DNA of 64,000 nucleotides. Source: Pocillopora verrucosa (taxonomy: Eukaryota; Cnidaria; Anthozoa; Scleractinia; Pocilloporidae). Both the position numbers and the translations under genes were made by a program. The notes below the pieces were generated by a model that saw only the letters and a list, made by a program, of their open reading frames with translations, was not told where the DNA came from and did not search any database. The stretch spans positions 10,174,938 through 10,238,937 of the forward strand of contig NC_089312.1 of assembly GCF_036669915.1 (NCBI RefSeq), in the 5' to 3' direction. Numbering within the stretch: the first letter of the stretch is position 1; every line of letters begins with the position of its first letter. This document shows, piece after piece, positions 4,348-28,260 of the stretch.

Positions 4348-5540
4348 CTTGCGACGTTTTTCGCAAATGGAGGCAATAAGTAATAAAAAATCTCACCTTG
4401 ATGTGTCGAGTTCAATATTTTCTTGCTTGTGACAGCTACTCTATGTTCATGCTTAACGAACCTCAAAGTCTTTTTCCGCGGAACTATCTATCCATCAGCT
4501 GAGGTACTTCGCTGCGCCTGGTTCCATCTTGGTTCCTTGATGTGGTGATCCACTCACTAGGTCCTCAGCTCGCAGATAGCGTAACGGCCTTAAGGATCAT
4601 GGAGACTAAAGGAGCAATTTGAGAGAAGAATTGAACAAGTTATCTAGCCAATATTCACGGGTTACCCTTTAGCAAGGCATAGCATCAGTAGGTCGCCTTC
4701 TTCAGGTTATGCTGAAGGGATTGGCAGAAGCTGTAGGATGTTCCAGGCGTGGTTGCTGGATCTACACTGAAAGATCTTTCGTAGGTGAAAAGACGATAGA
4801 CAAGACTTGACCGATTTTAAGCTTTATAATAATCTGAATTACATATGCATTCTCAGTAATGACCTACTGGAGGACAGAAGCATAGATGGCGTACGTTATA
4901 ATCAACAATTTTTTTTCTTTGCCATATAAAACGAGATAGATTCCAATTGCAGACAGTTACTAGAGTACTAAAAAGTTTTCCCGTGCATGTGTTGCATTCT
5001 GATGTTTGCTGTTTATTACGATATGTTTCATCCACACTGCGTTTTTTTGTCGTTAAGATCATTACTCTGAGTGGGATTTTGGCCTGGTGTGCCACCCCTG
5101 TGATCTTCAATGGAGTTAACCGACCATGGCGTCTTCATTGGAATGCTGCAGGCAGATGTCACAACATACTAGATGTGATCAGCGATCTGTTCTGAAGGGA
5201 GGCTCCACAAAAATGTTTTGGAAATGGAAATCCAAGCGAAAATGAAAAGGAAAAGAAGTGCAAAGATGCCTATAGCCGATATTATAGCGACCTTTACATA
5301 AATCCTTGCAAACTAGAATTTCTGATTCTTTTAAATCCGTCAAGCGTGTCTCCAGATGCTGATAATATCACGAGGTGTGCATTCAGAAATCTATGCTATG
5401 AAATCTATGATCAGGAGACCATGACACAAAAGCGGGTGACGCTCCAGAGATCCTACACTAAGTTCAAATAAGGAGGTAAATATCTGCTACGCCTTTAACT
5501 GCCACAGGTCTCACTCGAGATTTAAAAAGGATCGCTGACG

Positions 5541-11145: not shown

Positions 11146-14100
11146 TTACTTAATGTGTTTTGCGATAAAAGAATTCCTTCCTCTAGGATTTTGTGGCTCT
11201 CTGGTGAAGCGATCTTGGCCAACATTGGCCGACTCCCAATATTCCGAGCTATCTTTCACGTTAGTTGTCATGAGCCAAGTGGTCTTCAAAACTTCCTTTC
11301 CCTCGTCGTTCCGGTATTGGCCTGACCAAGAAGTGGTATATAATCCATCCTGCAAAAAGAGAGAGGAAAGACTCTGTCCGTCGGTTCTTCCTTAACTGAA
11401 TATGGCATCCACGCTGTATGATACATTGATCTTCAAACTTATCATTCGGTGGTTTACCAACTAGGTTTGCAAATCAACGCATTAAAAGAAAAATTTAATG
11501 CGGAATTCAAACCTTTTCCTTCTGGTACCGCACTGGAATAGTGTCACCTTAGGTCTGTAATGTTTTTCTTTTCTTGTACTATTTTCGAAACGAGAGCGAG
11601 TGTATCCAAACACCGAGAAAAAAATGAAAGCACGAGGCTGTAGGCCGAGTGCTTTTATTGTTTCGAGGTGTTTGGATACCCCGATGAAACGCGAAGCACG
11701 AGTTTTGGGATAACTTCTCATGATCACTCTTAACAAAATAATAATAAAATCCTTCCAATTAGAATTGTTTGCTGTCTAACATTCCTTCCTCGATAATTTC
11801 AGTATCAACGATGTTTTTTACCGGCGTGATTAATTTGTAATTATGGTGCGATTTAATTTATTCTGAGATGTGAAAGTTGCTGGAGTTGCCAGCGTTTGCA
11901 GGTTGTCGTTCAGTCAGGATGTATACCGCAACAAAATCGTTCGAGAGATTTCGGCAGCCGAAAAGTGTGGAGGATGAGAAGAAAAATGTTGATAATGCAG
12001 TACCGAAATCAACAGCTTATAAAATCAAATCGTCGTGTAAGGTTTTCGAGGAATGGAAACAGAATCGATTAGTGAGGTCCTGTACTTTGGAACCCGGCGG
12101 CCTTCTTACCACGAAAGACTTTGAAGAAGGAGTACAAACTTTGGACACGGCCATTACAGATATGTCTGCATGCAGTGTGAACTACTGGCTGTCGAAGTTC
12201 GTTCAAGAAGTAAGCAACTCTTCTGGGGAACGCTATCCTATCCCCATTTGCGGACTGAAGCGCCACCTTTCTGAAGTAAATGGAAGTGCTGCACTGAACC
12301 CTTTGTCATTGTGCATATTTTAGTAGTATATACCACTCTCACTGGAGAGTGATATACTGTTTTTCATTGGGGATCCAAACACATGCACGTGATGTGGTAT
12401 ACATCTTGTGGTTGGTAGTTGACCTGGTGAATATCAATGAGTTTGAGAAGGTCATATCCAAATTGACACTTCTGAATCTAAATTGAGTCCTAAAGCAATT
12501 TCATAATACAAAATGGCCATTGAAAATTCGATCCAGGCGATACTAATACCCTATTTCAGAATTACAAGATTGATAAGTTGTTTTTCATAAACCTTTGTTG
12601 TTGACAAATCACTGAGAGTAATATAAAAATTCAATGCTCATTAAAAAAAAACAAAAAAAATTACTTCGCTGAAGTTTTTCAAGACTAGCCCATGTCACTG
12701 ACAGAAAAAAGTCGCTTGTCTATGCTTCGAAAGAACCACTGCTTATCCATTGGGAGGGCCAGGCAACGCCACGCCCTTAGGGAGATGGGATAGTGTCTCT
12801 GCCTCTGAAATAACTTTGTTAGAGAAATCCAGCCAGTGACGTCTATAGGTGGAAAAAAAAACTTTTGGATGGGAAAGAAACCAATCGCAGTGAAACTAGA
12901 TTCATTGTTACTCGCCAGTAGTAAACTCTTGGATCGAACAATAGACAAGGTAGTCAAGGGTCGTTTTCATTTCGTCTCAGTTGTACATGTGGCGCTGAAG
13001 CGTTATCCGCCTTAGGAATAATATATATTTACATCTTCCTTATTCAGTTTCCATCTTAATATCCAGGTGAAAAATTTAGGTAGGCTAGGTGGGCTACTTA
13101 ACTACAAATAAACTGTGAAGGGTATGCATAAGAACCAGGACAGAAGAACACACAAAAAAACGAAAAGCTTAGTACTCGCACTTCTTTTTCTGCTGAATGA
13201 GCAACATGCATAGATAGCAAAACCACTACACTGATACGTTACCATCTCCAGACTTACTTCAAAATTGACCACGAAGCCAAGCGTAGCTGGTACGCCTTTT
13301 CCCAAACTGCCAATCAAACTCTCTGCATCTTTGTCTGTAGATCCTGGAGCACTGTTCACATACACGCCCTTCAATTCTCCATCGGCAGACTGGAAGATTT
13401 CCATCTGGGAGCCCAACTCGTTATACCACTTTCCACTCACGTCACCTATGGAGTAAGAGTTGGTGATAACTGAAGTGACCGCATAATGCTTGACTAATTA
13501 TTTTATTTAAAATCATCGGCACTTTACATATATGTTACTACTTCTGTTTTCGGTAAGTTTTGAGTTTTAAACTTCAAAACTGCACAGAAACGGTCTTAAA
13601 TTTGTAAAGTCATAGCCTTATTACAAAAAGCCGGGAAACCAAATTTCCTTGAATAGGAAACGATACTTTAAATAGTGTTTTTGAGACTTAAAAATTAGAG
13701 CCAACAATAGTCAAATTACAGCATCTCAGAGCAGCTATCAGACGTGGCATTTCTGCAAGGTCAGCGACGCTAGAAAACTATCATGAGTTCAAGAAAGCGT
13801 ATTTTATGCTGTTTTTTATGCAATTTTTTGGGTAGGCAGAATTATCAACTCGGCTGGAAAGGTGAAAAGACATCGAATCAGTTGTGTTCAAAGTCAAGCA
13901 TGGTCTGTGCCTGCTAAATTTCTGTGATTTATTTGTTTGTTTTTTTCCAAATGAGATTGAAATCAGCTGCAAATTTCTGTTTTTTGGAGGCACGACATCT
14001 AAATAGCATTAGAGAAAGAGCTATTTAAACTTTTAGGAAACTTCCCGCTCCACATTCCTCGATTGTTCCGTATCGAGCCCTCTTCCTTACTCCAGCTTCT

Positions 14101-15945
14101 ACAAAAAATACAGTTACAATTCCTCTTATTCAACAAATTTAAAATCAATGATGAAAGGTGACGCGTTGAAGAAATGTTTCTTTGAAAACTACTAGACTAA
14201 TGCCCCTTAATGACCACGCTCATTTTTTCTTTTTTTATTGTTATTGTCACTATAAACATTTTTAATTATTATTATTAAGTGCATTGAATTTGAATGAAAA
14301 AGTTTGAACTAATAGCAAAATCTTATTTTATAGATACCATTGTCCATCTTTCCTTAATCCCAGTATAGAGGCGGAAAATAAGGACCAATAAGGACTGGGA
14401 ACGAATACCTACCGTATTCTGTGCAAGCCATAGTAGAGTCCTGATTTGTGCTAAATGCGTAACGTACTGAACCAGTGTTGACCAAAGAGACTCCCCTTCC
14501 TCCTGATAAAGGCCATTGTTCCTGAATGAAAAAGGAAATTCTGTGTAAATGAACCTCGTCATGTGGAACCTCAGATCTCTGTTTGTAGTCTCGAGCAGAA
14601 ACCCACTGTTTAAGTCCATACCCTATCTCTCGGTGTGGACTTTAAAAGCATATCATTGTAATTTCATTCCGATTATTTCAAAATTCCCTTAGTGTGGGCC
14701 CGAGTGCCCGGGCGTGGACTTGAGTCTGTGTATAAACGTTTCATTTTTATCCCGAATACTTTAACCCCCATATTATCCCTGCCTAAAAATCAACATAAGC
14801 CTTTAACGTTCTACTTGATTACACTGACAGTAATCATCTTGAGCTGACATGGAACACAATTCATTTAAACTTGAAAACCCAAATCTTATCTTAAAATTTT
14901 ATTGTGCTCAGTTCTCAGTCTTATGAATTTAATGAAACCAGCTTTCATTTCGCCACACGGAGGATGTTTTTGAAGACATTACACTGATCTGTTAATTTAA
15001 ACATGATGCCTTGTATGCCACCTACAATAATAACTACGTATCAAAAAAATCCACGCCCTGGTAAAGTGTTGGCGTTTTGCAAACAAAGTTGAATTTTCAG
15101 CTCAAAGGAATCATAAATAAAGCCGGTGGGACATGTGTTGAAAATAGGATTTTGTGCGCGACTTGTTCCTTTCTTTTATTGGATCACTTAATCGAGTCAC
15201 GTGACTTCTGCACATGATTCAATCCGCCCTCAAGATCAAAGTCTGAGAAATTTCCGGGAATATATTCGTTTCTCACAGCATTGTTTTTCTATACGCAGGT
15301 TTGCTAATACTGACATACAAGGTATCACTTCCAGATATGAGTGACGTTTTGACATCGTGATTAACACAATTAACCCCCAAACTTCCGTGACTGACTGAGA
15401 CAGAATTTTACAACTTACAATATCTACAGATAAGCCATGGGAATAAAGAGAAATAGTGTGTATTAAAACGAACTGAGAAAGCGACTCGCGCGGGATTTGC
15501 ACCCAAAAGTTTTGTAATCGTTGCATGAATAAATCACTTAAAAACCATCTCTTTGAGCGATATTATCTCACTGTTTTAGCTTGCACTAAAAAAAAACCAT
15601 TTACCTCAGTGTCGGTGAGTAGTGGTGGATATTTCCTCTGCCGCTTCGCGGCTCAGTAAATATCCACCACTAGCCCCCTCCACTTCAACTGGCGGATCGT
15701 TAGTTGATCCAATACCAAATTCTCCGAACTAGCTGCTTAGGAATTTAAGGCAGACAGTTAGAAGAATTCCTAATTAGATATTTGGGGTGGAAAGATTAAT
15801 TAGTTTTGCTTTGCAAGAATAAGAAACTAACCCCTGACGTTAACTTGAGGGGATAAGATCGCGCTACCACTGAAATGCAGGCTGCTAGACAAGGTTTCAA
15901 AAACCGCGACAACGTTGTGCTGTGATGGGGTGAAAGTCTCAACAT
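11146..15945 (-). CDS. Avidin-family biotin-binding protein, copy A
   Basis: Four minus-strand exons join in frame to a 204-aa protein: leader 15945-15832, linker 14521-14413, avidin N-half 13445-13258, avidin C-half 11349-11146. Every junction has GT-AG sites and matching phases. The leader has basic residues and a short hydrophobic stretch (CLAACISVVA), so it may be a secretion or mitochondrial signal. The linker is not recognised. The avidin domain (about residues 78-190) shows WYNELGSQMEI, GVYVNS, LGFVVNFE, TTSWSGQY, KEVLKTTWLM and YWESANVGQD. By the streptavidin pattern, N83, S87, Y103, T143, W145, W162, W175 and D183 match ligands N23, S27, Y43, T90, W92, W108, W120 and D128. Asn105 replaces S45, Phe136 replaces W79 and Tyr141 replaces S88. 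Avidins are tetrameric beta-barrels that bind biotin, often as defence proteins. An upstream in-frame ATG at 16029 is a possible alternative start. Confidence 0.9.
11574..12455 (+). mobile_element. DUF3504/Crypton-type insertion inside avidin A intron
   Basis: This stretch is missing from the matching intron of avidin copy B: flanks 'tttttcttttcttg' and 'caaattgacacttctgaatc' are adjacent there. Near its left end are inverted words gtatccaaacacc (11602-11614) and ggtgtttggatac (11667-11679). Near its right end is a hairpin gtatataccactctc/gagagtgatatac (12326-12357). It carries an open frame with a DUF3504-type domain and inserted antisense to the host gene. Exact ends and target-site duplication were not resolved. 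Confidence 0.6.
11877..12323 (+). pseudogene. KIAA1958/QRICH1-like DUF3504 (Crypton-derived) protein, N-terminal fragment
   Basis: A 148-codon open frame; the first codon given is TTG, so the true start is unclear. It matches the N-terminal pattern of DUF3504 proteins such as KIAA1958, QRICH1 and ZMYM: VPKSTAYKIK, FEEWKQNRL, a loop, then CSVNYWLSKFVQEV, GERYPIPICGLKRHL and EVNGSAALNPL. These descend from the tyrosine recombinases of Crypton transposons. The spacer between YP and CGL is shorter than usual. The frame stops at 12321-12323 before the recombinase catalytic core, so the protein is truncated and unlikely to mobilise itself. Confidence 0.65.
15620..15672. repeat. Hairpin repeat with GCCGCTTCGCGGC loop (copy A)
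   Basis: Perfect 15-bp arms tagtggtggatattt (15620-15634) and aaatatccaccacta (15658-15672) flank a GC-rich ccgcttcgcgg core. It lies between the avidin linker and leader exons. The copy in avidin B (22627-22681) keeps the core and right arm, but its left arm has decayed. Confidence 0.75.
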
Positions 15946-16364
15946 TCTCCTTTCTCTGTTTTGAGAACTTCGGAATCTGCAGGTATGAAAAGGACTGATT
16001 AATTTGTGCTGATGAATTTTTAAGATCATTGAAGATCAATGAGAGAGGCTCGGAAAAAATGGATGTATGATAAGATTACTTAATAAAAAATTTACGCCCT
16101 CCTATTTAACAGAACAGAAGAACTATTTAACATGCAAGACGCCATAATCAAATTTGGTCGTGCTTAACAAAATTTAATGAGCTGGCATGCAAGCGGGCCT
16201 TACACGATAACTAAAGTCAATATCATTAAGAGTAACCTACCAAGAATCAAATGTTCATCGATTCTTTTATGTTGCTTCCTAAAAGGCGAATATTAAGCTC
16301 TATGGAAACTTTGTTTAAACATATTTCATTCCCTTTGTAATAAACAAATTTTGGGGCCAATGTG

Positions 16365-17465
16365 CTTTCAGTTACAGAGTAAACTTTTTGCATCAAGTGA
16401 GAAAAATAACAGTCGTGTTGGCAAAAGCTAAATCATTTATATTGCGTACAGGGTTGTCACGGGTGAAGCAAACCTTTCCTCTAGCGCACCTTTTCATTGT
16501 GCGGTTCACCAACATTTCAAGTATATTTACATTTCAAATACGAAATGCTGTTATCTTCTTCAGCCCGGGGGCAACGTTTCGCTAGTTTTTTGTTTGCTTA
16601 CTTTGATTTGTTTGGTTCCCACGACATATCAAAATAACTTCGTTGATTAATCCCATTAATAGGAAATCAAATATTCCGCTAAGCATGACTTGTTCAAACA
16701 CAAATCACAATATTTCAAGTAGTTCTAAGAAATTTGATCAGTCGTAAATTGTGAGATTTAATATGCGTGATCAGTTTTACTCAACAATGTGCCATTTTTA
16801 GAGGACAAAGACCAGTCAAACTTCTAAACACCAGACAAATTGCAGCTGATTGATTGATTGATTGCGATGGTGATTGACTTAGCAAACATATTATGAACCT
16901 TTGTCATAAAACCGAAAATTTCCCAAACCACACGTGCTCTTCTTGGTCCCTTTTGGGTCACGTGGCGGTTATATGACGTCAGAACAGTTAACTTTTCTCG
17001 CGAATGTTGACCGATGACCGTCGTGCCACATGAACGAAGCGCGATTGAAGATGGTGGAATGATGACGCACATTCTGAACATTGTAGTACTTTGCTCTTTT
17101 AATGAGCTTTTACAAACAAATCATTCATAGATTTTCCATTCGTTCTGATATTGTACTTTCCAATGTGTTCGTTGAACTATTAAACAAATCACTTAACGAC
17201 TGTTCCCACAAAAAAGAAATCAACTCCAATTAGTTTCCCGACAATTCCTGTGTTTCCTAAAGCAGAGCTGTATGGCTGGCGTCCGAGCAGGACAGAGTGA
17301 GTCCTTTGACAACTAAGATTAACGACAATCCAGGTTACACAGTAATGACAATATTTGGACATTTCAGATCACGGTAGGACAAATAAAAGGCAAACTAAGA
17401 ATCATAACACCACTTGTTGCAAACCAAAATACAAGGCGTACTAGTAGGTTTTAGTTACTTCTTGT
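16365..17465. repeat. Repeat block with 'tgacgtca' unit, first copy
   Basis: The block holds two recognisable modules. One has a GTTAC..GTAAAC word followed by 'gagaaaaat...gcgtacagggt.gtca.gggt.aagcaaac' (16370-16480). The other has 'cccaaaccacac.tgctct...ggtc' leading to a CRE-like tgacgtcag, then 'gaatgttgaccgatga' and 'tgatgacgcacatt' (16915-17090). The second module recurs at about 18684-18880, 23666-23850, 24760-24860 (partial), 26431-26620 and 27036-27240. No protein family is recognised in either strand. Confidence 0.7.
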
Positions 17466-19190
17466 CGATGTCGGCTCGACAAACCTTTGATACAGATTTG
17501 TAATCGCCTAGAATGAGAATATTACAGCGTACTTCTATACACTGAAAAATTCCAAGAGCTTAGTGGAAAGAGCAAGAATCATTTACCTTGGGAAGCTGAC
17601 GTAGCCCTTGTCGCCAAAGGCACAATTTTTTTCAGTGAACCTTCTTCGCACGAGCCCTCTCACAGTCCTTGGCGTAATGCTAAATACCGTTGTCAAACTT
17701 CCTTATCATATGCCACCAGTCCACCCCCTCACCTGTCAATAACTGCACACAAGTAATAGCCTGCTCGCGTGTACTGCGTCTCACCGGGTTTGCGCAGACA
17801 ACGATCTTTCCTAAGCTGTCACAGGAGGATTCGTGAAATTCAAATCAAATGACCATAAACAATGTTTTAAACTTAGTTTACTTCGTAAACTTTTCGCTGA
17901 GAATGAGAAAAATAAGTTTCGCGGTTTTAAATGCTAATTCTTAGTACAATTCCAGTACAGCGTCTCTCTGGGTTTGCTGCATACAGCATTCTTTCCTTAG
18001 CTATCAGAGGAAGATTCCCGAAATAAAATCGAGCTGCAGAATGACCCGAAACAATGTTTTCAAGTCAGTTTACCACGTAAACTTTTCGCTGAGAGTAAGA
18101 AAAATCATTTGCGTGGTGGATAATGCTAATTCTTTTACATCACGTACAGGGTCGTCAAGGGTCAAGCAAACTTTTCCTCCTACGCGTTTTTTCAATGTAT
18201 GACAACCTGGCGCACCAATATATCAATTCTATGTACATTTAAATATCAAATGCTGTTCAGTGTCGTTTTCAGCCTGAAGGCAACTTTCTTTTTCTTTTTT
18301 TCTTACTTTGATTTGTTTGGTTGCCACGACATATCAAAATGACTTCTCTTATTTATCAATATATAGTTATACCACAGGTATATAGGTGCCAGCTTTAAAG
18401 GAGATCAAATATTCCGTTAGGCATGACTTGTTCGAACACAAATTACAATATCTCAAGTGGTTCCTAGAAATTTGTCAAGTCTTAAAATGTGTGATTTAAC
18501 TTCTGTAATCAGTTTTATAAAACACTGTGCAATTTTTAAATCACAAAGACCATTCAAACTTCAAAAAACTGGACCAAATGCAGCTTGTTTGATCGATCGA
18601 TTGATTGATTAATTGATTGACTACGACTGTCATTGACTCCGCAAAAAAATTATATGAATCGTTATTATAAAGCTGGAATTTTTCCCAAACCACACATGCT
18701 CTCATTGGTCGCTTTGGGGTTACATGACATCTAACGTTTTCAAGTGGTTCTATGACGTCAGAACAGTGAACTGCTCGCGTGAATGTTGACCGATGACTGT
18801 TGTGCCACATGAACGGAGCATGATTGAAAGTGGCGGGATGATGACGCACATTCTAAGCATTGCAGTATTTTGCACTTTTATGAGCTTTTCTAAGTAAGTC
18901 ATTCATAGATTAAAGTTAAACTAAGAATCATGACACCAGTTGCTGCAAACCAAAATACGAGGCCTACTGGTAGGTTTTGGTTACTTCTTGTCGAAATCGG
19001 CGCGACAAACCTTTGATGCAGCTTTGTAATTACCTAAAATGAAATTATTACGAGGCACTTCTATACCTTAAAAAACACTAAGAGCCTCGGGTAAAAGAGT
19101 GAGAATCATTAGCCTTGGGTAGGTGTTTCGACCCTCCTGGCCAAAGATACAATCTGTTCCAAATTACCGATCGATAAAAATACTTCACCT
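17466..19190. repeat. Complex repeat block C1
   Basis: Direct copy of 25213-26670. It contains a dimer of a unit of about 184 bp (17773-17945 and 17957-18140), each with 'ctttccttagct..cagagga.gattc', a gtttac..cgtaaac inverted word and 'gctgagagtaagaaaaat'. The block then continues into the tgacgtcag module. Open frames here are not conserved in frame between copies, so it is read as non-coding. Confidence 0.65.
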
Positions 19191-19264
19191 TACTTCCACG
19201 GTGTATCGCTTGTTATTGTCTTACAGGGACAAGTAACCTAGAAAAATTGCCTCGCATGTTAGAA

Positions 19265-19370
19265 GCGCCCAACAATTAGGAGTCAAATCCCGTCGAAGCC
19301 AGGCTTCCTAATTCGTGCGATTGCAATAATTGTGGCTCATCTGCGAGGATCTTTCCCTTTTTTACCTGGA
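19265..19370 (+). repeat. Degraded tRNA-derived SINE tail
   Basis: The words 'gagtcaaatcccgtcgaagcc', 'tgcaataattgtggctcatctgcgaggat' parallel the B-box and body of the better preserved SINE at 35550-35700. The A-box end is not clear. Confidence 0.45.
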
Positions 19371-19731
19371 TGATCAAATCTTTTTGATGCTATCGAATTC
19401 TTTCGAATTGCTGTCCTCGTTTAAAATTGGCTTTCCTATGCACTGGGTGCCAGGTTTCTCTCACGACATTAGTGACAGACGGACTAAGGACGCTTTACGG
19501 ACTATGCACATCAACCTGTGCCAATTACCCCGAGGAGGGTGGCAATGGTTTAAGCCAGAATAATTTCATATGATTTTAAATCCTCAAGCTTTAAGCTTTC
19601 CTTTCGCTCTGACAAATGGGCTGATGCTCGAAATATCACGGGCTTATCGGCTCCTTGCATAAATTGTAGTCAGGCTAGGCGCTCTTACTCAGCTAAGTTC
19701 CTGTGGGTGAAGCTAAGGCTGGCTTAGTGTT

Positions 19732-22096
19732 TAGGAACAGGGCAGGGAAAGGAGTTCGGAAAATCCGAGCAATTACATTAATTAAAAATAATTATAAAAG
19801 TAAAGAAGAACTGCTTACTGGGTCCTTTAATAATCAAACGCATAGTAAGAGGCGAAATAAAAAAAAAAGTAGACAGCTAATGGTACTAAGAAGCTAATTC
19901 TGATTTAGTTACCTTGATGGTATGATCTCATATAAGGTGGTTTAAATTTATCATCGGAAATTTTCCAAAGCAATTTGATTTTTTTGCCTTATTGTCCCAA
20001 TAGAAAATCTTAGTAAAGGTGCCCCAAAAAATTTAAGCCATGGAAAAACTCGAACCACAACATATGAATACATAAGAGGTTGCATTGACAGAGCTGAGTA
20101 ACGTCTACGCATGTTACGAACTCGCTCATGAAACCATAGCAACAGCACATGTTCATCAAAATGGCAGAAACTCTCAAATTGTTGGAAACTTTCAAATTGT
20201 TGAAAACTTTAATGTCCTTCATCCATTGCAGCGTGCTACTAAACAAAACTGAAGACTGTCGCTGATCGCGCCCAGCACATATACCGACATTATTGCATTC
20301 ATAACCTGAGAAGATACATGTGCAGCTTTTTTACTCTAGTGTTACATTGTTTTCAAATAATAGCCTGCAAGAGTTCCCGACATGCGCAGATATGCTTGAG
20401 CTCTGTCAGTTGCATTTACTTTACGCTATTGATTTCTTTGCGTCCTCGAAAAGTGGTTTATTATGCAGAAGTTTAATTAAGCCCTAATCTTTTATTACTT
20501 TTCTTTAATTTGAGACCCATTGCTCGTCCTCACATCAGTTTTCACCCGAGTTACTTTATGTGTTGTGCGACAAGAGACCTCCTTCCTCCAGGATTTTGTG
20601 GCACTCTGGTGAAGAAATCTTGGCTAACATTGGTCGACTCCCAATATTGCGAGCCATTTTCCAGGTTAGCTGTCATTAGCCAAGTAGTCTTCAAAACTTC
20701 CTTTCCCCCGTCGTTCCGGTATTGGCCGGACCAAGTAGTGGTATATTTTCCATCCTACAACAAAAGAGAGGAAAGACTCTGTCGGTTCCTCCTAAACTGA
20801 AAATGGCATCCACGCTGTATAATACATTGATCTTCAGACTTATCATTCGGTGGTTTATCAAATCAACGCATTGAAAAATATTTTAATGTGGAATTCGAAC
20901 CTTTTCCTTCTGGTACCGCACTGGAATAATGTCACCTTAGGTCTATATTGTTTTTCTTTTCTTGGTTGTACCCAAACTGACACTTCTGAATCTAAATCGA
21001 GTCCTAAAGCAATTTCATAATACAAAACGGCCATTGAAAATTAGGCGATATTAATACCCTACTTCCTGATTAAAAGATTGATGGATTGTTTTTCATAAAC
21101 CTTTGTTGTTGACAAATTACTGAGAGTAATATACAAATTAAATGCTAATACTAAGACCAAATAAAATTAATTCGCTGAAGCTTTTCAAGACTAGCCTAAA
21201 GTCGCGTGTCTATGCTTCGAAAGGACCACTGCTTATCCATTGGGAGGGCCAGGCAACACCACACCCTCAGGGGGGAGGGATGGTGTCCCTGCCTCGGAAA
21301 TCTTTGTTAGAGAAATCCAGCCAGTGACGTGTACAAGTGAAAAAAAAATTTTGGATGGGAAAGAAATCAATCGCAAAGAAACTAGATTCATTGTTACTTG
21401 CCAGTAGTAAACTCTTGGATCGAACAATAGACAAGGAGGTCAGGGGTCGTTTTCATTTCATCTCATTTGTGCTTGTGGCGTCATCCCTCAGCAATAATAT
21501 ATATTTACATCTCCCTTATTTAGTTTCCATCCGAATATCCAGATAAAAAATTTAGGGAAGGCCCATCCTCTCCAAAGCTAGTTATTTTAGGTGGGCTACT
21601 TAACCTACAAATAAACTGTGAAGTGTATGCATAACAACCAGGACAGAAGAACACACAAAAAAAAAACAAAACAAAACAAACCAAAGCAAAAGCCTAGTAC
21701 TCGCACTCCTTTTCCTGCTGAATGAACAACATACATAGAAAGCACACTATCACACTAATAAGTTACCATCTCCAGACTTACTTCAAAATTGACCACGAAA
21801 CCAAGCGTAGCTGGTACTCCTTTTCCCAAACTGCCAACCAATTTCTCAGTAAGAACTTCAGAACCTGAGGCACTGTTCACGTACACGCCCTTGAATACTC
21901 CATCGGCCGGGGAGCACTGGATGATTTCCATCTGGGAGCCCAACTCGTTGTACCACTTTCCACTTATGTCAGCTATGGAATAGGAGTTGGTGATAATTGA
22001 AGTGACCGCACAATACTTGAGTGTGGTAATTATTTAGTTTAATTTTGACTTATTACTTACTTTGATGATGAAAATGAATCATTTCCATCATTTTTA

Positions 22097-22130
<34 letters not shown>

Positions 22131-24124
22131 CATTGAATTGAAATGATGAAGTTTGAACTAATAGCAAAATCTTATTTCATAGTTACCATTGCCCATCTTT
22201 CCTTAATCCCAGTATAGAGGCGGAAAATAAGGACCAATAAGGACTTGGCACCAGTACCTACCGTAATCTTGGCAAGCCATAATAGAGTCCTGCTTTGTGC
22301 TAAGTGCGTAACGTACAGAACCAGTGTTGACCAAAGACACGCCCTTTCCTCCTAATAACGGCGATAGCTCCTGAATGAAAACGAAAATTCTGTATAAATG
22401 AACCTCGTCATGTGGAACCTCAGATATCTGTTTGTAGTCTCGAGCAGAAATCCGCTGTTTAAGTCCACACCCTATCTCTCGGTGTGGACTTAAAAAGTAT
22501 ATAAATGTAAGTATATAAATGTAATTTTATCCCGGATATTTCCTAAGAGTGGGTGAGAGGCTCAAAGTGATATTACCCCACTGTTTTAGTTTGCACTAAA
22601 AAAAGCTTTTTATCTCAGTGTCGGTGGCTAGTAAAGCATATTTCCTCCGCCGCTTCGCGGCTCAGTAAATATCCACCACCAGCCCCCTCCACTTCAACTG
22701 GCGGATCCTAGGTTGATCCAATACCAAATTTTCTGACAAGCACCTTAAGAATTAAAGGCAGACAGTGAGGAGCATTCTTAATGTGATACTGGGAGTGAAA
22801 GGATTAATTACTTTTGCTTTGCAAGAACTAGAAACTAACCCCTGGCGTAAACTTAAGAGGATAAGATCGCACTACCACTGAAATACAGGCTGCTAGACAA
22901 GGTTTCAAAAACGAGACAACGTTGTGTTGTGATAGGGTGGAACTTTCAACATTCTCCTTTCTCTGTTTTGAAAACGTTAAAATCTGCAACTGTGAAACGT
23001 ACTGATTCATTTGTGCTGATAAAACGGGTCCAGGCGCGAATAGCCTTTTCCATTTACATTGTGTTAGGAAATCATGGTCTTGACTCAAAACAAAATGCAT
23101 TCTAGATCGGTCCGAAACCCGTTGTGGACATATTTCATTCCCTTTGTAATAAACAAATTTTTGGGCCAATGTGCGTTCAGTTACAGAGTAAACTTTTTGC
23201 ATCAAGTGAGAAAAATAACAGTCGTGTTGGCAAAAGGTAAATCTTTTTTTTTTTTTTTATTGCGTACAGGGTTGTCACGGGTGAAGCAAACCTTTCCTCT
23301 GGCACACCTTTTCATTGTGCGGTTCACCAACATTTCAAGTATATTTACATTTCAAATACGAAATGCTGTTATCTTCTTCAGCCCGGGGGCAACGTTTCGC
23401 TAGTTTTTTGTTTGCTCACTTTGATTTGTTTGGTTCCCACGACATATCAAAATAACTTCGTTAATTAATCCCATTAATAGGAAATCAAATATTCCGCTAA
23501 GCGTGACTCGGTTCAAACACAAATCACAAAAAAGTTTCAAGTAGTTCTAAGAAATTTGATCAGTCTTAAATTGTGAGATTTAATATGCGTGATCAGTTTT
23601 ACTCAACAATGTGCCATTTTTAGAGGACAAAGACCAATCAAACTTCTATATTATAAAGCTGAAAATTTCCCAAACCACACATGCTCTTCTTGGTCCCTTT
23701 CGGGTCACGTGGCAGTTCTATGACGTCAGAAGAATTAACTTTTCTCGCGAATGTTGACCGATGGCCGTCGTGCCACATGAACGAAGCACGATTGAAGATA
23801 GTGGGATGATGACGCACATTCTGAGCATTGTAGTACTTTGCTCTTTTTATGAACTTTTACAAATAAATCATTCATAGATTTTGGGTTCGTTCTAACATTG
23901 TACCTTCCAATGTGTCCTAAAGCAGAGCTGTGTGGCTGGCGTACGAGCAGGACAGAGTGAGTCCTTTGACAACTAAGATTAACAACAATCCAGGTTACAC
24001 AGTAATAACAATGTTTGGACATTTCAGATCACGGTCAGACAAGTAAAAGGCAAACTAAGAATCATGACACCACTTCTTGCAAACCAAAATACAAGGCGTA
24101 CTAGTAGGTTTTAGTTACTTCTTG
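19732..24124. repeat. Segmental duplication, copy B (with avidin gene B)
   Basis: About 4.4 kb collinear with 10305-17465 but more compact, since it lacks the DUF3504 insertion and two other stretches. Between the linker and avidin exons it has a (TTA)n microsatellite (22097-22129). Similarity to copy A ends abruptly at 24124 after 'ttttagttacttcttg', where an inverted block begins. Confidence 0.85.
20551..22952 (-). CDS. Avidin-family biotin-binding protein, copy B
   Basis: Same exon plan as copy A: linker 22370-22262, avidin N-half 21972-21782, avidin C-half 20754-20551, with identical intron phases and intact splice sites. The avidin domain keeps WYNELGSQMEI, GVYVNS, LGFVVNFE, TTTWSGQY, TTWLMT and YWESTNVSQD, so the biotin-site pattern, including the Asn and Phe replacements, matches copy A. 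The N-half is one codon longer and has an extra Cys. The leader exon (22952-22840) has lost one base relative to A in a T run near 22905-22915, so the A-type start codon leads to an early stop. The frame that joins the linker stays open upstream to 23205 and offers other ATGs. Either the start has shifted, or the copy is silenced, or the base is a sequencing error. The three downstream exons show no defect. Confidence 0.85.
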
Positions 24125-24129
24125 AACCT

Positions 24130-26030
24130 GAACTAAAACTGAACAGCATTTGATATATGGATACGCCAGTGTGCCATTCATTGAAAAAACGCGCAGGGGG
24201 AAAGGTTTGCTTGACCCTTGACGACCCTGTACGTGATGTAAACGAATTAGCATTATCCACCACGCAAATGATTTTTCTTACTCTCAGCGAAAAGTTTATT
24301 TGGTAAACTGAGTTAAAAACATCGTTTCGGGTCATTTTGCAGCTCGATTTTATTTTAGGGAATCTTCCTCTGACAGCTAAGGAAAGAATGCTGTATGCAG
24401 CAAACCCAGAGAGACACTATACTGGAATTGTACTAAGAATTAGCATTTAAAACCGCAAAACTTATTTTTCTCACTCTCAGCGAAAAGTTTACGAAGTAAA
24501 CTAAGTTTAAAACATTGTTTATGGTCATTTTATTTTAATTTCGCGAATCCTCCTCTGAAAGCTTATGAAAAATCGTTGTCTGCGCAAACCCGGTGAGACG
24601 CAGTACACACAAGCAGGCTAATATTTATGTGAAGTTATTGCCAGGTAAGGGGGTGGACTCGTGATATATGATAAGGCAGTTCGACAACGATATTTAGCAT
24701 TACCCCAAGGACTGTAAGAGCGCTCGTGCGAGGTAGGTTCACTGAAACAAATTGTTAAAGCTCCGATGACCGTCGTGCCACATGAACAGAGCGCGATTGA
24801 AGATGGTGGGATGATGACGTACATTCTGAGCATTGTGGTATTTTGCTCTTTTGTGAACTTTAACAAGTAGGTCATTCGTAGATTTTCAATTCGTTTTGAC
24901 ATTGTACCTTCAAATGCCTTTGTTGAACTATTAAACAAATCACTTAACGACTGCTCCCAAGAAAAGATATAATCAACTTTAATTTGTTTCCCAACGATTC
25001 CAATGTTTCTTAAAGTAGAGCTATATGGCTGGCGTCCAAGCAGGACAGAGTGTGTCCTATGGCAAGTAAGATTAACAACAATCCAGGTTACGCAGTAATG
25101 ACAATATTTGGACATTTCAGATCACGGTAAGACAAATAAAAGGCAAACTAAGAATCATAACACCACTTGTTGCAAACCAAAATACAAGGCGTACTAGTAG
25201 GTTTTTAGTTACTTCTTGTCGATATCAGCTCGACAAACCTTTGATACAGATTTGTAATCGCCTAGAATGAGAAAATTAAAGCGTACTTCTATACCCTGAA
25301 AAATACCAAGAGCTTAGTGGAAAGAGCAAGAATCATTTACCTTGGGAAGCTGACGTAGCCCTTCTCGCCAAAGACAAAATTTGCTCCAATGAACCTATCT
25401 CGCACGAGCGCTCGTACAGTCCTTGGCGTAATGACAAATACCGTTGTCTAACTGCCTTATCATATGCCACGAGCCCAACCCCTCACCTGTCAATAATTTC
25501 ACACAAATATTAGCCTGCTTGTGTGTATTGCGTCTCACCGGGTTTGCGCAGACAACAATCTTTCTTAAGCTGTTAGAGGAGGATTCGCGAAATTCAAATC
25601 AAATGACCATAAACAATAATTTGAACTTAGTTCATTTCGTAAACTTTTCGCTGAGAATGACAAAAATAAGTTTCGTGGTTTTAAATGCTCGTTCTTAGTA
25701 CGATTCCAGTACAGCGTCTCTCTGGGTTTGCTGCATACAGCATTCTTTCCTTAGAGTTCAGAGGAAGATTCCCTAAAATAAAATCGAGCTGTCAAATGAC
25801 CCGAAACGATGTTTTTAACTCAGTTTACCAAGTAAACTTTTTGCTGAGAGTAAGAAAAATCATTTCCGTGGTGGATAATGCTAATTCTTTTACATCACAT
25901 ACAGGGTCGTCAAGGGTCAAGCAAACTTTTCCTCCTACGCGTTTTTTCAATGTATGACAACCTGGCGCACCAATATATCAATTCTATGTACACTTAAATA
26001 TCAAATGCTGTTCAGTTTCGTTTTCAGCCC
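24130..26030. repeat. Large inverted repeat (arms about 0.6 kb)
   Basis: 24130-24740 is the reverse complement of about 25380-26030. For example, the sense word ggtggataatgctaattctttta near 25870 appears inverted near 24240. Both arms carry the 'cagggtcgtcaagggtcaagcaaac' word. The centre (about 24755-25213) is in direct orientation and matches 17005-17462 and 23750-24120. One inversion within a tandem array explains this. Confidence 0.75.
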
Positions 26031-28260
26031 GAGGGCAACTTTCTGTTTCTTTTTTTCTTACTTTGATTTGTTTGGTTGCCACGACATATCAAAATTACTT
26101 CTCTTATGATCAAAATATAGTTATACCACTGGTATATAAGTGCCAGCTTTAAAGGAGATCAAATATTCCGCTAGGCATGACTTGTTCGAACACAAATTTC
26201 GATATCTCAAGTAGTTCTAAGAAATTTGTCCAGTCTTTAAATGTGCGATTTAACTTCTGTGATTTGTTTTATTAAACACTGTGCAATTTTTAGATCACAA
26301 AGACCATTCAAACTTCAAAAAACTTGAACAAATGCAGCTTGTTTGATCGATCGATTGATTGATTAATTGACTACGATTGTTATTGACTCCGCAAACATAC
26401 CATGAATCGTTATTATAAAGCTGGAATTTTTCCCAAACCACACATGCTCTCATTGGTCGCTTTGGGGTTACATGACATCTAACGTTTCCAAGTGATTCTA
26501 TGACGTCAGAACAGTGAACTGCTCGCGTGAATGTTGACCGATGACTGTTGTGCCACATGAACGGAGCATGATTGAAAATGGCGGGATGATGACGCACATT
26601 CTAAGCATTGCAGTATTTTGCACTTTTATGAGCTTTTTTAAGTAAGTCATTCATAGATTAAATGTCATGTTAATGTTAAATGTTAAATATCAAAATGACT
26701 TCTCTTATTTATCAATATATAGTTATACCACAGGTATATAGGTGCCAGCTTTAAAGGAGATCAAATATTCCGTTAGGCATGACTTGTTCGAACACAAATT
26801 ACAATATCTCAAGTAGTTCCTAGAAATTTGTCAACTCTTAAAATGTGTGATTTAACTTCTGTGATCTGTTTTATAAAACACTGTGCAATTTTTAGATCAC
26901 AAAGACCATTCAAACTTCAAAAAACTGGACCAAATGCAGCTTGTTTGATCGATCGATTGATTGATTAATTGATTGACTACGATTGTTATTGACTCCGCAA
27001 ACATACTATGAATCGTTATTACAAAGCTGGAATTTTTCCCAAACCACACATGCTCTCATTGGTCACTTTGGGGTTACATGACATCTAACGTTTTCAAGTG
27101 GTTCTATGACGTCAGAACAGTGAACTGCTCGCGTGAATGTTGACCGATGACTGTTGTGCCACATGAACGGAGCATGATTGAAAATGGCGGGATGATGACG
27201 CACATTCTAAGCATTGCAGTATTTTGCACTTTTATGAGCTTTTCTAAGTAAGTCATTCATAGATTAAAGTTAAACTAAGAATCATGACACCAGTTGCTGC
27301 AAACCAAAATACAAGGCCTACTAGTAGGTTTTGGTTACTTCTTGTCGAAATCGGCGCGACAAACCGTTGATGCAGATTTGTAATTATCTAAAATGAGATT
27401 ATTTCGTGGCACTTCTATACCTTAAAAAAACACTAAGAGCCTCGGGTAAAAGAGTAAGAATCATTAACCTTTGGTAGGTGTTTCGACCCTCCTGGCCAAA
27501 GATACAACCTGTTCCAAATTACCGATCTCGCACGAGCACTACAGTCCTTGGTGTAATGCCAAATAGTATTGTCTAACTTCCTTATCATATGCCACAAGCC
27601 TACCCCCTCATTTTTCCATAACTGCACACGAATGATAGCCTGCTCGAGTGTACTGCGGCTTACTGGGTTTGCTGCAGACAACGTTCTTTCCTAAGCTGTT
27701 AGTAAAAAGATTCCCGAAAATCAAATCGGAAGACCAGAAACAATTTTTTCACTCAGTTTACTGAGTAAACTTTTCGCTGAGAGTGAGAAAAATAATTTTC
27801 GTGGTAGATAATGCTAATTCTTTTACATCACGTACAGGGTCGTCAAGGGTCAAGCAAACTCCTCCCACTGCGCGTTTTTTCAATATATGGCAACCTGGTG
27901 CACCAATATATCAATTCTATGTACATTTAAATATCAAATGCTGTTCAGTTTCGTTTTCAGCCGGGAGGCAACTTTCCGTTTCTTTTTTTCTTACTTTGAT
28001 TTGTTTGGTTGCCACGACATATCAAAATGACTTCTCTTATTGATCAAAATATAGTTATACCACTGGTATAAAAGTGCCAGCTTTAAAGGAGATCAAATAT
28101 TCCGCTAGGCATGATTTATCCAAACACATATTTCAATATCTCAAGTAGTTCTTGAGATATTAGTTTTCCAGTGTTTAAATGTATGATCTAACTTCTGTGA
28201 TCTGTTTTATAAAACACTGTGCAATTTTTAGAGCACAAAGACCATTCAAACGTCTACCTT
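25213..28260. repeat. Repeat blocks C2, C3 and C4
   Basis: C2 (25213-26670) matches 17466-19000. C3 (about 26691-27520) repeats the second half, including the tgatcgatcgattgattga-rich stretch and the tgacgtcag module. C4 (about 27520-28260) repeats the first half. Copies differ by scattered substitutions and small indels, so they were made at different times or have drifted. No gene is recognised. Confidence 0.7.

Follow-up and report, generated by a model that had tools for sequence, protein, structure and literature searches.

A window of 64,000 nucleotides from the stony coral Pocillopora verrucosa (contig NC_089312.1, positions 10,174,938 to 10,238,937) contains two avidin genes, A and B, in tandem on the minus strand. 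Coordinates below are positions within this window, and residue numbers (T35, W70, S75, L99, W110 and N118) are those of avidin. A sequence-only reading of the window had proposed such a minus-strand pair, and it is borne out by matching exons, GT-AG splice sites and Pfam scores. The Avidin profile (PF01382) matches both genes far above its cut-off of 24 and far beyond chance (A, 94.2 bits, E 8.8e-27; B, 90.7 bits, E 1.1e-25), and the motifs picked out earlier (WYNELGS, TTxWSGQY, TTWLM and YWES..QD) are present as described. Judged from these sequences, membership of the avidin family is near certain for both copies.

Exon structure of the pair

The 204-residue model of gene A, leader included, was compared with 5.8 billion database proteins. 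It returned 16 matches, every one with an avidin domain, which cover 32–76% of the query. The database protein P0001 is gene A from an ATG in exon 2 through the stop codon, identical at all but one of 136 residues; P0002 is gene B with a start slightly upstream within exon 2, and has one mismatch besides its first residue. The exon 2/3 and 3/4 junctions are present in these two proteins, those of A in P0001 and those of B in P0002, so exons 2–4 are joined in both genes. Both proteins come from short contigs with the source code lgn, read here as assemblies of public reads, probably transcripts. The exons and their supports are as follows, with phases of 0/1/0 in both genes.

Gene A exon 4, 11146..11349, minus strand: second half of the barrel, basic tail and stop codon; GT-AG sites and phase, with the join to exon 3 found in P0001
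Gene A exon 3, 13258..13445, minus strand: first half of the barrel
Gene A exon 2, 14413..14521, minus strand: linker; an in-frame ATG at 14429-14431 opens the 136-residue form, which is P0001
Gene A exon 1, 15832..15945, minus strand: 5' untranslated exon or 38-residue leader with a composition like that of a mitochondrial presequence; donor site, phase 0
Gene B exon 4, 20551..20754, minus strand: join found in P0002
Gene B exon 3, 21782..21972, minus strand: splice sites and phase
Gene B exon 2, 22262..22370, minus strand: in-frame ATG at 22278-22280, opening a 137-residue form; upstream part found in P0002 and P0049
Gene B exon 1 region (uncertain), 22840..23010, minus strand: one base shorter than A within the would-be leader

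The four-exon plan that both copies had been said to share thus holds for A and for exons 2–4 of B, exon 1 of B being uncertain. The prospect that the exons might prove unjoined is answered for exons 2–4 by P0001 and P0002; the exon 1/2 junction is absent from all database proteins among the matches listed. In a paralog, P0010, exon-1 sequence is joined straight to exon-3 sequence in a different reading frame, as expected if exon 1 there is transcribed yet untranslated. Fourteen database proteins read through exon 3 into the intron at 'NFE'; they were retrieved by that very pattern, and so indicate that such genomic copies exist and give no rate. Four exon-3 fragments (P0015, P0056, P0087 and P0119) enter A-like intron sequence, yet depart from both genes in either exon or intron sequence, and would be other copies, alleles or sequences of related corals.

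Fold and binding pocket

The predicted structure of P0001 is an avidin barrel of eight antiparallel strands (predicted local distance difference test score 81.8, with residues 127–136 below 50). Pocket and tail were compared across 15 aligned coral rows, P0015 and P0017 being excluded. The pocket positions kept are N12, L14, S16, Y33, T77, W97 and W110, with Asp at 118. The residues that bind the ureido group and stack against the ring are kept, apart from Y33 in P0010, and so is W110, which reaches across subunits. The Gly-Arg of the basic tail is invariant across the 15 rows. The proteins likely bind biotin, perhaps less tightly than does egg-white avidin.

Further avidin genes and animal ancestry

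The tandem pair is real but is not the whole family. In the genome (353 Mb in 52 contigs; C1, C4 and C12 are contig labels), a profile search with 10 matches and a protein search with 12 agree on six avidin genes: besides the pair on C1, contig C4 has three and C12 a single one. Six is a lower bound, the best candidates alone having been scored. The C4 genes (L010, L011 and L012, at 15.548–15.663 Mb) are near-copies of one another, with main blocks 93–99% identical and short pieces 88%. Each has an intact 204-residue frame in our splice model and the phase plan of A and B, 0/1/0. None has an in-frame ATG in exon 2, and they must therefore start upstream, in exon 1. Leu replaces W110 in all three.

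The C12 gene (L009:1931-2159 plus 4604-5427) is a two-exon model with two avidin domains (E 4.3e-64), a signal peptide at the N-terminus and a hydrophobic C-terminal tail resembling those of glycosylphosphatidylinositol (GPI)-anchored proteins. In both domains the Trp residues of the classical pocket and the pair of disulfide-forming Cys are present. Its product would be a membrane-anchored double avidin, held by a putative GPI anchor, for which we know of no natural precedent.

Two unrooted trees were built, one of 43 rows and one of 35, the latter without P0010, P0014, P0016, P0017 and P0026 among others; besides corals, the rows of known animal origin are chicken and this genome's own only. 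Coral sequences group with animal avidins in both (support 96/88 with 43 rows, 100/99 with 35), and acquisition of the genes from bacteria is rejected on their place on the animal side of both trees. The 16 short coral rows form one group in the 43-row tree (82/90). With 35 rows, the short coral avidins join P0018 and P0020, environmental proteins with signal-like N-termini (90/88), and C12 joins chicken avidin with the same support, a placement that its long branches call on us to read with caution.

Start of the proteins

Exon 1 of gene A can be read as an in-frame leader of 38 residues. The claim that both copies carry such a leader holds at best for A: the corresponding start in B, at 22952, is frameshifted, B being one base short, and runs 15 codons to a stop, and the open frame of B begins at another ATG, 23010. 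The leader of A is in none of the 16 matches to the 204-residue query. The exon-2 ATG lies in a strong context (A at −3, G at +4), and 12 residues precede the first-strand motif in the Montipora foliosa protein. No hydrophobic secretory signal was evident at any of the 14 coral N-termini inspected (six of fewer than 10 residues, eight scored), a count that leaves out P0014, P0015 and P0017. The only Cys in the 136-residue form of A is close to the N-terminus; the position that holds its partner in the usual avidin disulfide lacks one.

The starts of P0001 and other database proteins had suggested that the proteins are certainly leaderless, a view dropped as the C4 paralogs need an upstream start. 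That they certainly have a leader is not supported either: no database protein among the matches listed has one, and that of B is frameshifted. Gene A may make both long and short forms, and gene B probably makes the short form only.

Location and use

Building on the genes themselves, the exon 2–4 joins, the predicted fold, the pocket residues and the animal ancestry, we propose, at a rough probability of 0.42, that A and B are tandem animal-type avidins of a short, single-domain, intracellular coral subfamily, which bind biotin through an altered pocket and act as a biotin sink. The short coral avidins would remain inside the cell, in the cytosol or the mitochondria. Their eight-stranded barrel, closed by the conserved basic tail, would most likely bind biotin via a pocket that is conserved yet changed. 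Their likeliest use would be as a stored intracellular protein that deprives microbes, symbionts or feeders of biotin, by analogy with the fungal tamavidins, for which protection of the mushroom has been suggested.

Several observations weigh against this proposal. The coral pocket is changed at four positions: T35 to Asn (15/15), W70 to Phe (15/15), S75 to Tyr, Phe or His (14/14) and L99 to Met (15/15), and to judge by the residues a bulky side chain at S75 could weaken biotin binding. P0017, a relative of 105 residues outside the alignment, has Val at T35, Asn at N118 and no Gly-Arg tail. By our own Nei-Gojobori count (41 changing and 13 silent differences), A and B have a ratio of nonsynonymous to synonymous rates (dN/dS) of 0.84, so that purifying selection is weak or masked and the protein changes fast. 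The hydrophobic stretch in the leader of gene A (hydropathy 2.63) would also suit a signal peptide, and most database N-termini are automatic gene calls, some plainly begun upstream or at non-ATG codons. A free cytosolic avidin could damage the cell's own biotin enzymes. As for the roles against microbes or symbionts that the sequence-only reading had suggested, they would most simply call for export, and export is not favoured by the sequences.

It is possible, if somewhat unlikely, that A and the C4 genes instead encode mitochondrial avidins that begin in exon 1 with a presequence, the start of B being partly lost, and that buffer biotin or restrain biotin carboxylases; mitochondria are the compartment of most biotin enzymes. 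The C4 models share the phase plan of the pair and need an upstream start, and their leader is Arg-rich, acid-poor and amphipathic. Presequence-likeness was scored by simple features picked after the leaders had been seen, against the ATG frames of the window with overlapping frames counted separately (501 other frames for A and B, the gene's own leader excluded; 502 for C4). Frames at least as presequence-like numbered 1/501 for A and 1/502 and 0/502 for two C4 copies, and 42/501 for B, whose frameshifted leader is unremarkable. The leader of A bears a weak likeness to those of C4, its score being reached in 47 of 5000 shuffles (146/5000 for leader plus linker); for the shared part of B the figure is 13/5000, which is not independent of A. 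The C4 leaders lack a hydrophobic core (0.24–0.58) and are hence no signal peptides. Across leader plus linker, 10 of the 18 differences that separate A from B change an amino acid, slightly fewer than the 74% expected (P 0.08).

Against a mitochondrial location, the leader-bearing query matched no database protein with a leader, and P0009, from Montipora foliosa, has none. Homology of the A and C4 linkers, visually plausible in the multiple alignment, did not survive a shuffle test and a wrong-frame control: the C4 linkers are not alike to that of A (3234/5000 shuffles) or B (1057/5000), and some wrong-frame readings outscore the correct one (for A, 20 against 16; for B, 29 against 19). The C4 splicing is itself a model made without transcripts. 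A wider picture, with coral mitochondrial avidins (C4 and A, the leader lying across exons 1 and 2) beside a membrane-anchored, cell-surface double avidin in the same genome, is in our judgement doubtful. Were the mitochondrial location true, the avidin would regulate or store the animal's own biotin and would not serve as a weapon alone. Two further avidins, P0030 and P0046 (source ena), which the tree places on the side of bacteria and fungi, have N-termini that are likewise presequence-like by simple features.

A second alternative is that the barrel, like that of sea-urchin fibropellin, has lost biotin binding and now takes a different ligand or plays a structural part. The fixed changes at T35, W70, S75 and L99, the loss of W110 in all three C4 copies, the weak constraint between A and B and the label Fibropellin-1 on one relative all point that way. 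We nevertheless think it unlikely. All 15 aligned short coral avidins retain W110, and in place of W70 they have Phe, which carries no charge; the fibropellin pattern, W110 to Lys with W70 to Arg, virtually abolished the biotin binding of avidin, according to an excerpt of PMC8033661.

Least probable of the three is an ordinary secreted avidin, exported for extracellular defence by a signal peptide at the start of exon 1. The hydropathy of the exon-1 stretch (2.63 in A, 2.87 in B) is close to that of three relatives with signal-like N-termini (2.7–3.0), and section 3 of a 2021 survey (PMC8033661) describes the known eukaryotic avidins as secreted, which it says may protect the producer. Set against these are the corresponding C4 leaders with their missing hydrophobic core, the coral N-termini, 14 of 14 without a signal, the clearly different C12 avidin, which does have a signal peptide in the same genome, and the lone Cys of the 136-residue form.

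An intracellular or mitochondrial animal avidin, if true, would break the rule that eukaryotic avidins are secreted, and would raise the question of how the cell saves biotin for its own carboxylases. Biotin may move between coral host, algae and bacteria, and an internal binder could thereby matter for symbiosis.

Duplication and surroundings of the pair

Nearly all of the B unit (19.8–23.6 kb) matches pieces of the A unit (10.4–16.8 kb) at 81–97% identity, the A unit being longer by intron stretches missing from B. By this pattern the unit was duplicated as one block. Identity between A and B is 86–88% over exons 2–4, 86–93% over exons 2–4 with introns, and highest over the upstream DNA, which would reflect either gene conversion in the recent past or conservation of a control region:

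Upstream DNA of gene A, 16319..16826, strand not applicable: 97.2% identical to 23128-23648
Upstream DNA of gene B, 23128..23648, strand not applicable: partner of 16319-16826

An insertion in intron 3 of A (11577-12454), missing in B, is probably a mobile element; it holds a 149-residue frame that is weakly QRICH1-like (E 1.6e-4, below cut-off). Long repeats, 92% identical, lie upstream of the avidin genes at 17011-18914 and 24763-26662, with further partial copies to 28.3 kb. The adjoining genes are ordinary animal ones (an acyltransferase-like frame, METTL21A, TMEM129 and TTI1). METTL21A is 84% identical to that of Oculina patagonica 79% to that of Montipora foliosa and 55% to that of Nematostella, which marks the source as a stony coral, perhaps one of the robust clade, and agrees with the cnidarian setting recognized from the sequence beforehand. 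No further avidin copies were found within about 9–10 kb on each side of the window.

Comparison with known avidins

The sequence-only reading knew of no well-described pair in corals, which overstates the novelty. Coral avidins are already named in databases, among them the avidin-related protein 4/5-like of Montipora foliosa. Excerpts of a Pocillopora acuta proteome study describe an 'avidin' spot, assigned to the host, that was reduced at high temperature after four weeks (PMC5792016), and Table 2 of PMC3740780 gives a dN/dS of 1.65 for a pair of avidin-related transcripts attributed to Symbiodinium C and D, whose origin may be either the alga or the coral host. No paper devoted to a coral avidin gene or protein was found in the literature searched, subscription papers and preprints lying outside its scope. 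The pair is thus not the first report of a coral avidin; what is new is a probably intracellular subfamily beside a surface-type double avidin.

The closest named relatives, the Montipora foliosa protein (61% identical to the query) and the 'Fibropellin-1' of Acropora cervicornis (51%), belong to the same subfamily as A and B, with a short N-terminus and the Gly-Arg tail; no characterisation of either was found in the literature searched. In fibropellin, EGF repeats stand next to the avidin domain, and the name is misleading for the single avidin domain of the Acropora protein. No EGF repeats were found beside the avidin domain of A or B, for which Pfam gives Avidin alone in A and, in B, Avidin plus a sub-threshold domain of unknown function. 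Among other cnidarians, the hydrozoan Hydractinia has an Avidin-like gene, compared here by description only, whose expression in situ marks epithelial cells of the tentacle base, a kind that expresses venom-type genes, according to the portion of PMC11876637 used here.

Two fungal avidin-like rows lie on the opposite side of the tree from the corals, which sets the pair apart from tamavidin 2 (PDB 2zsc). Chicken avidin and avidin-related proteins (PDB 1vyo and 2of8) share family, domain and side of the tree with the coral copies (the match to 1vyo has E 4.3e-16). Chicken avidin is exported; unlike it, the coral copies have no partner for the Cys, carry Asp at N118, Trp at F79 and Phe at W70, and end in a basic tail. 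Within the genome itself, the C12 gene is of the avidin family too, but differs from A and B in its signal peptide, its two domains and its hydrophobic C-terminal tail.

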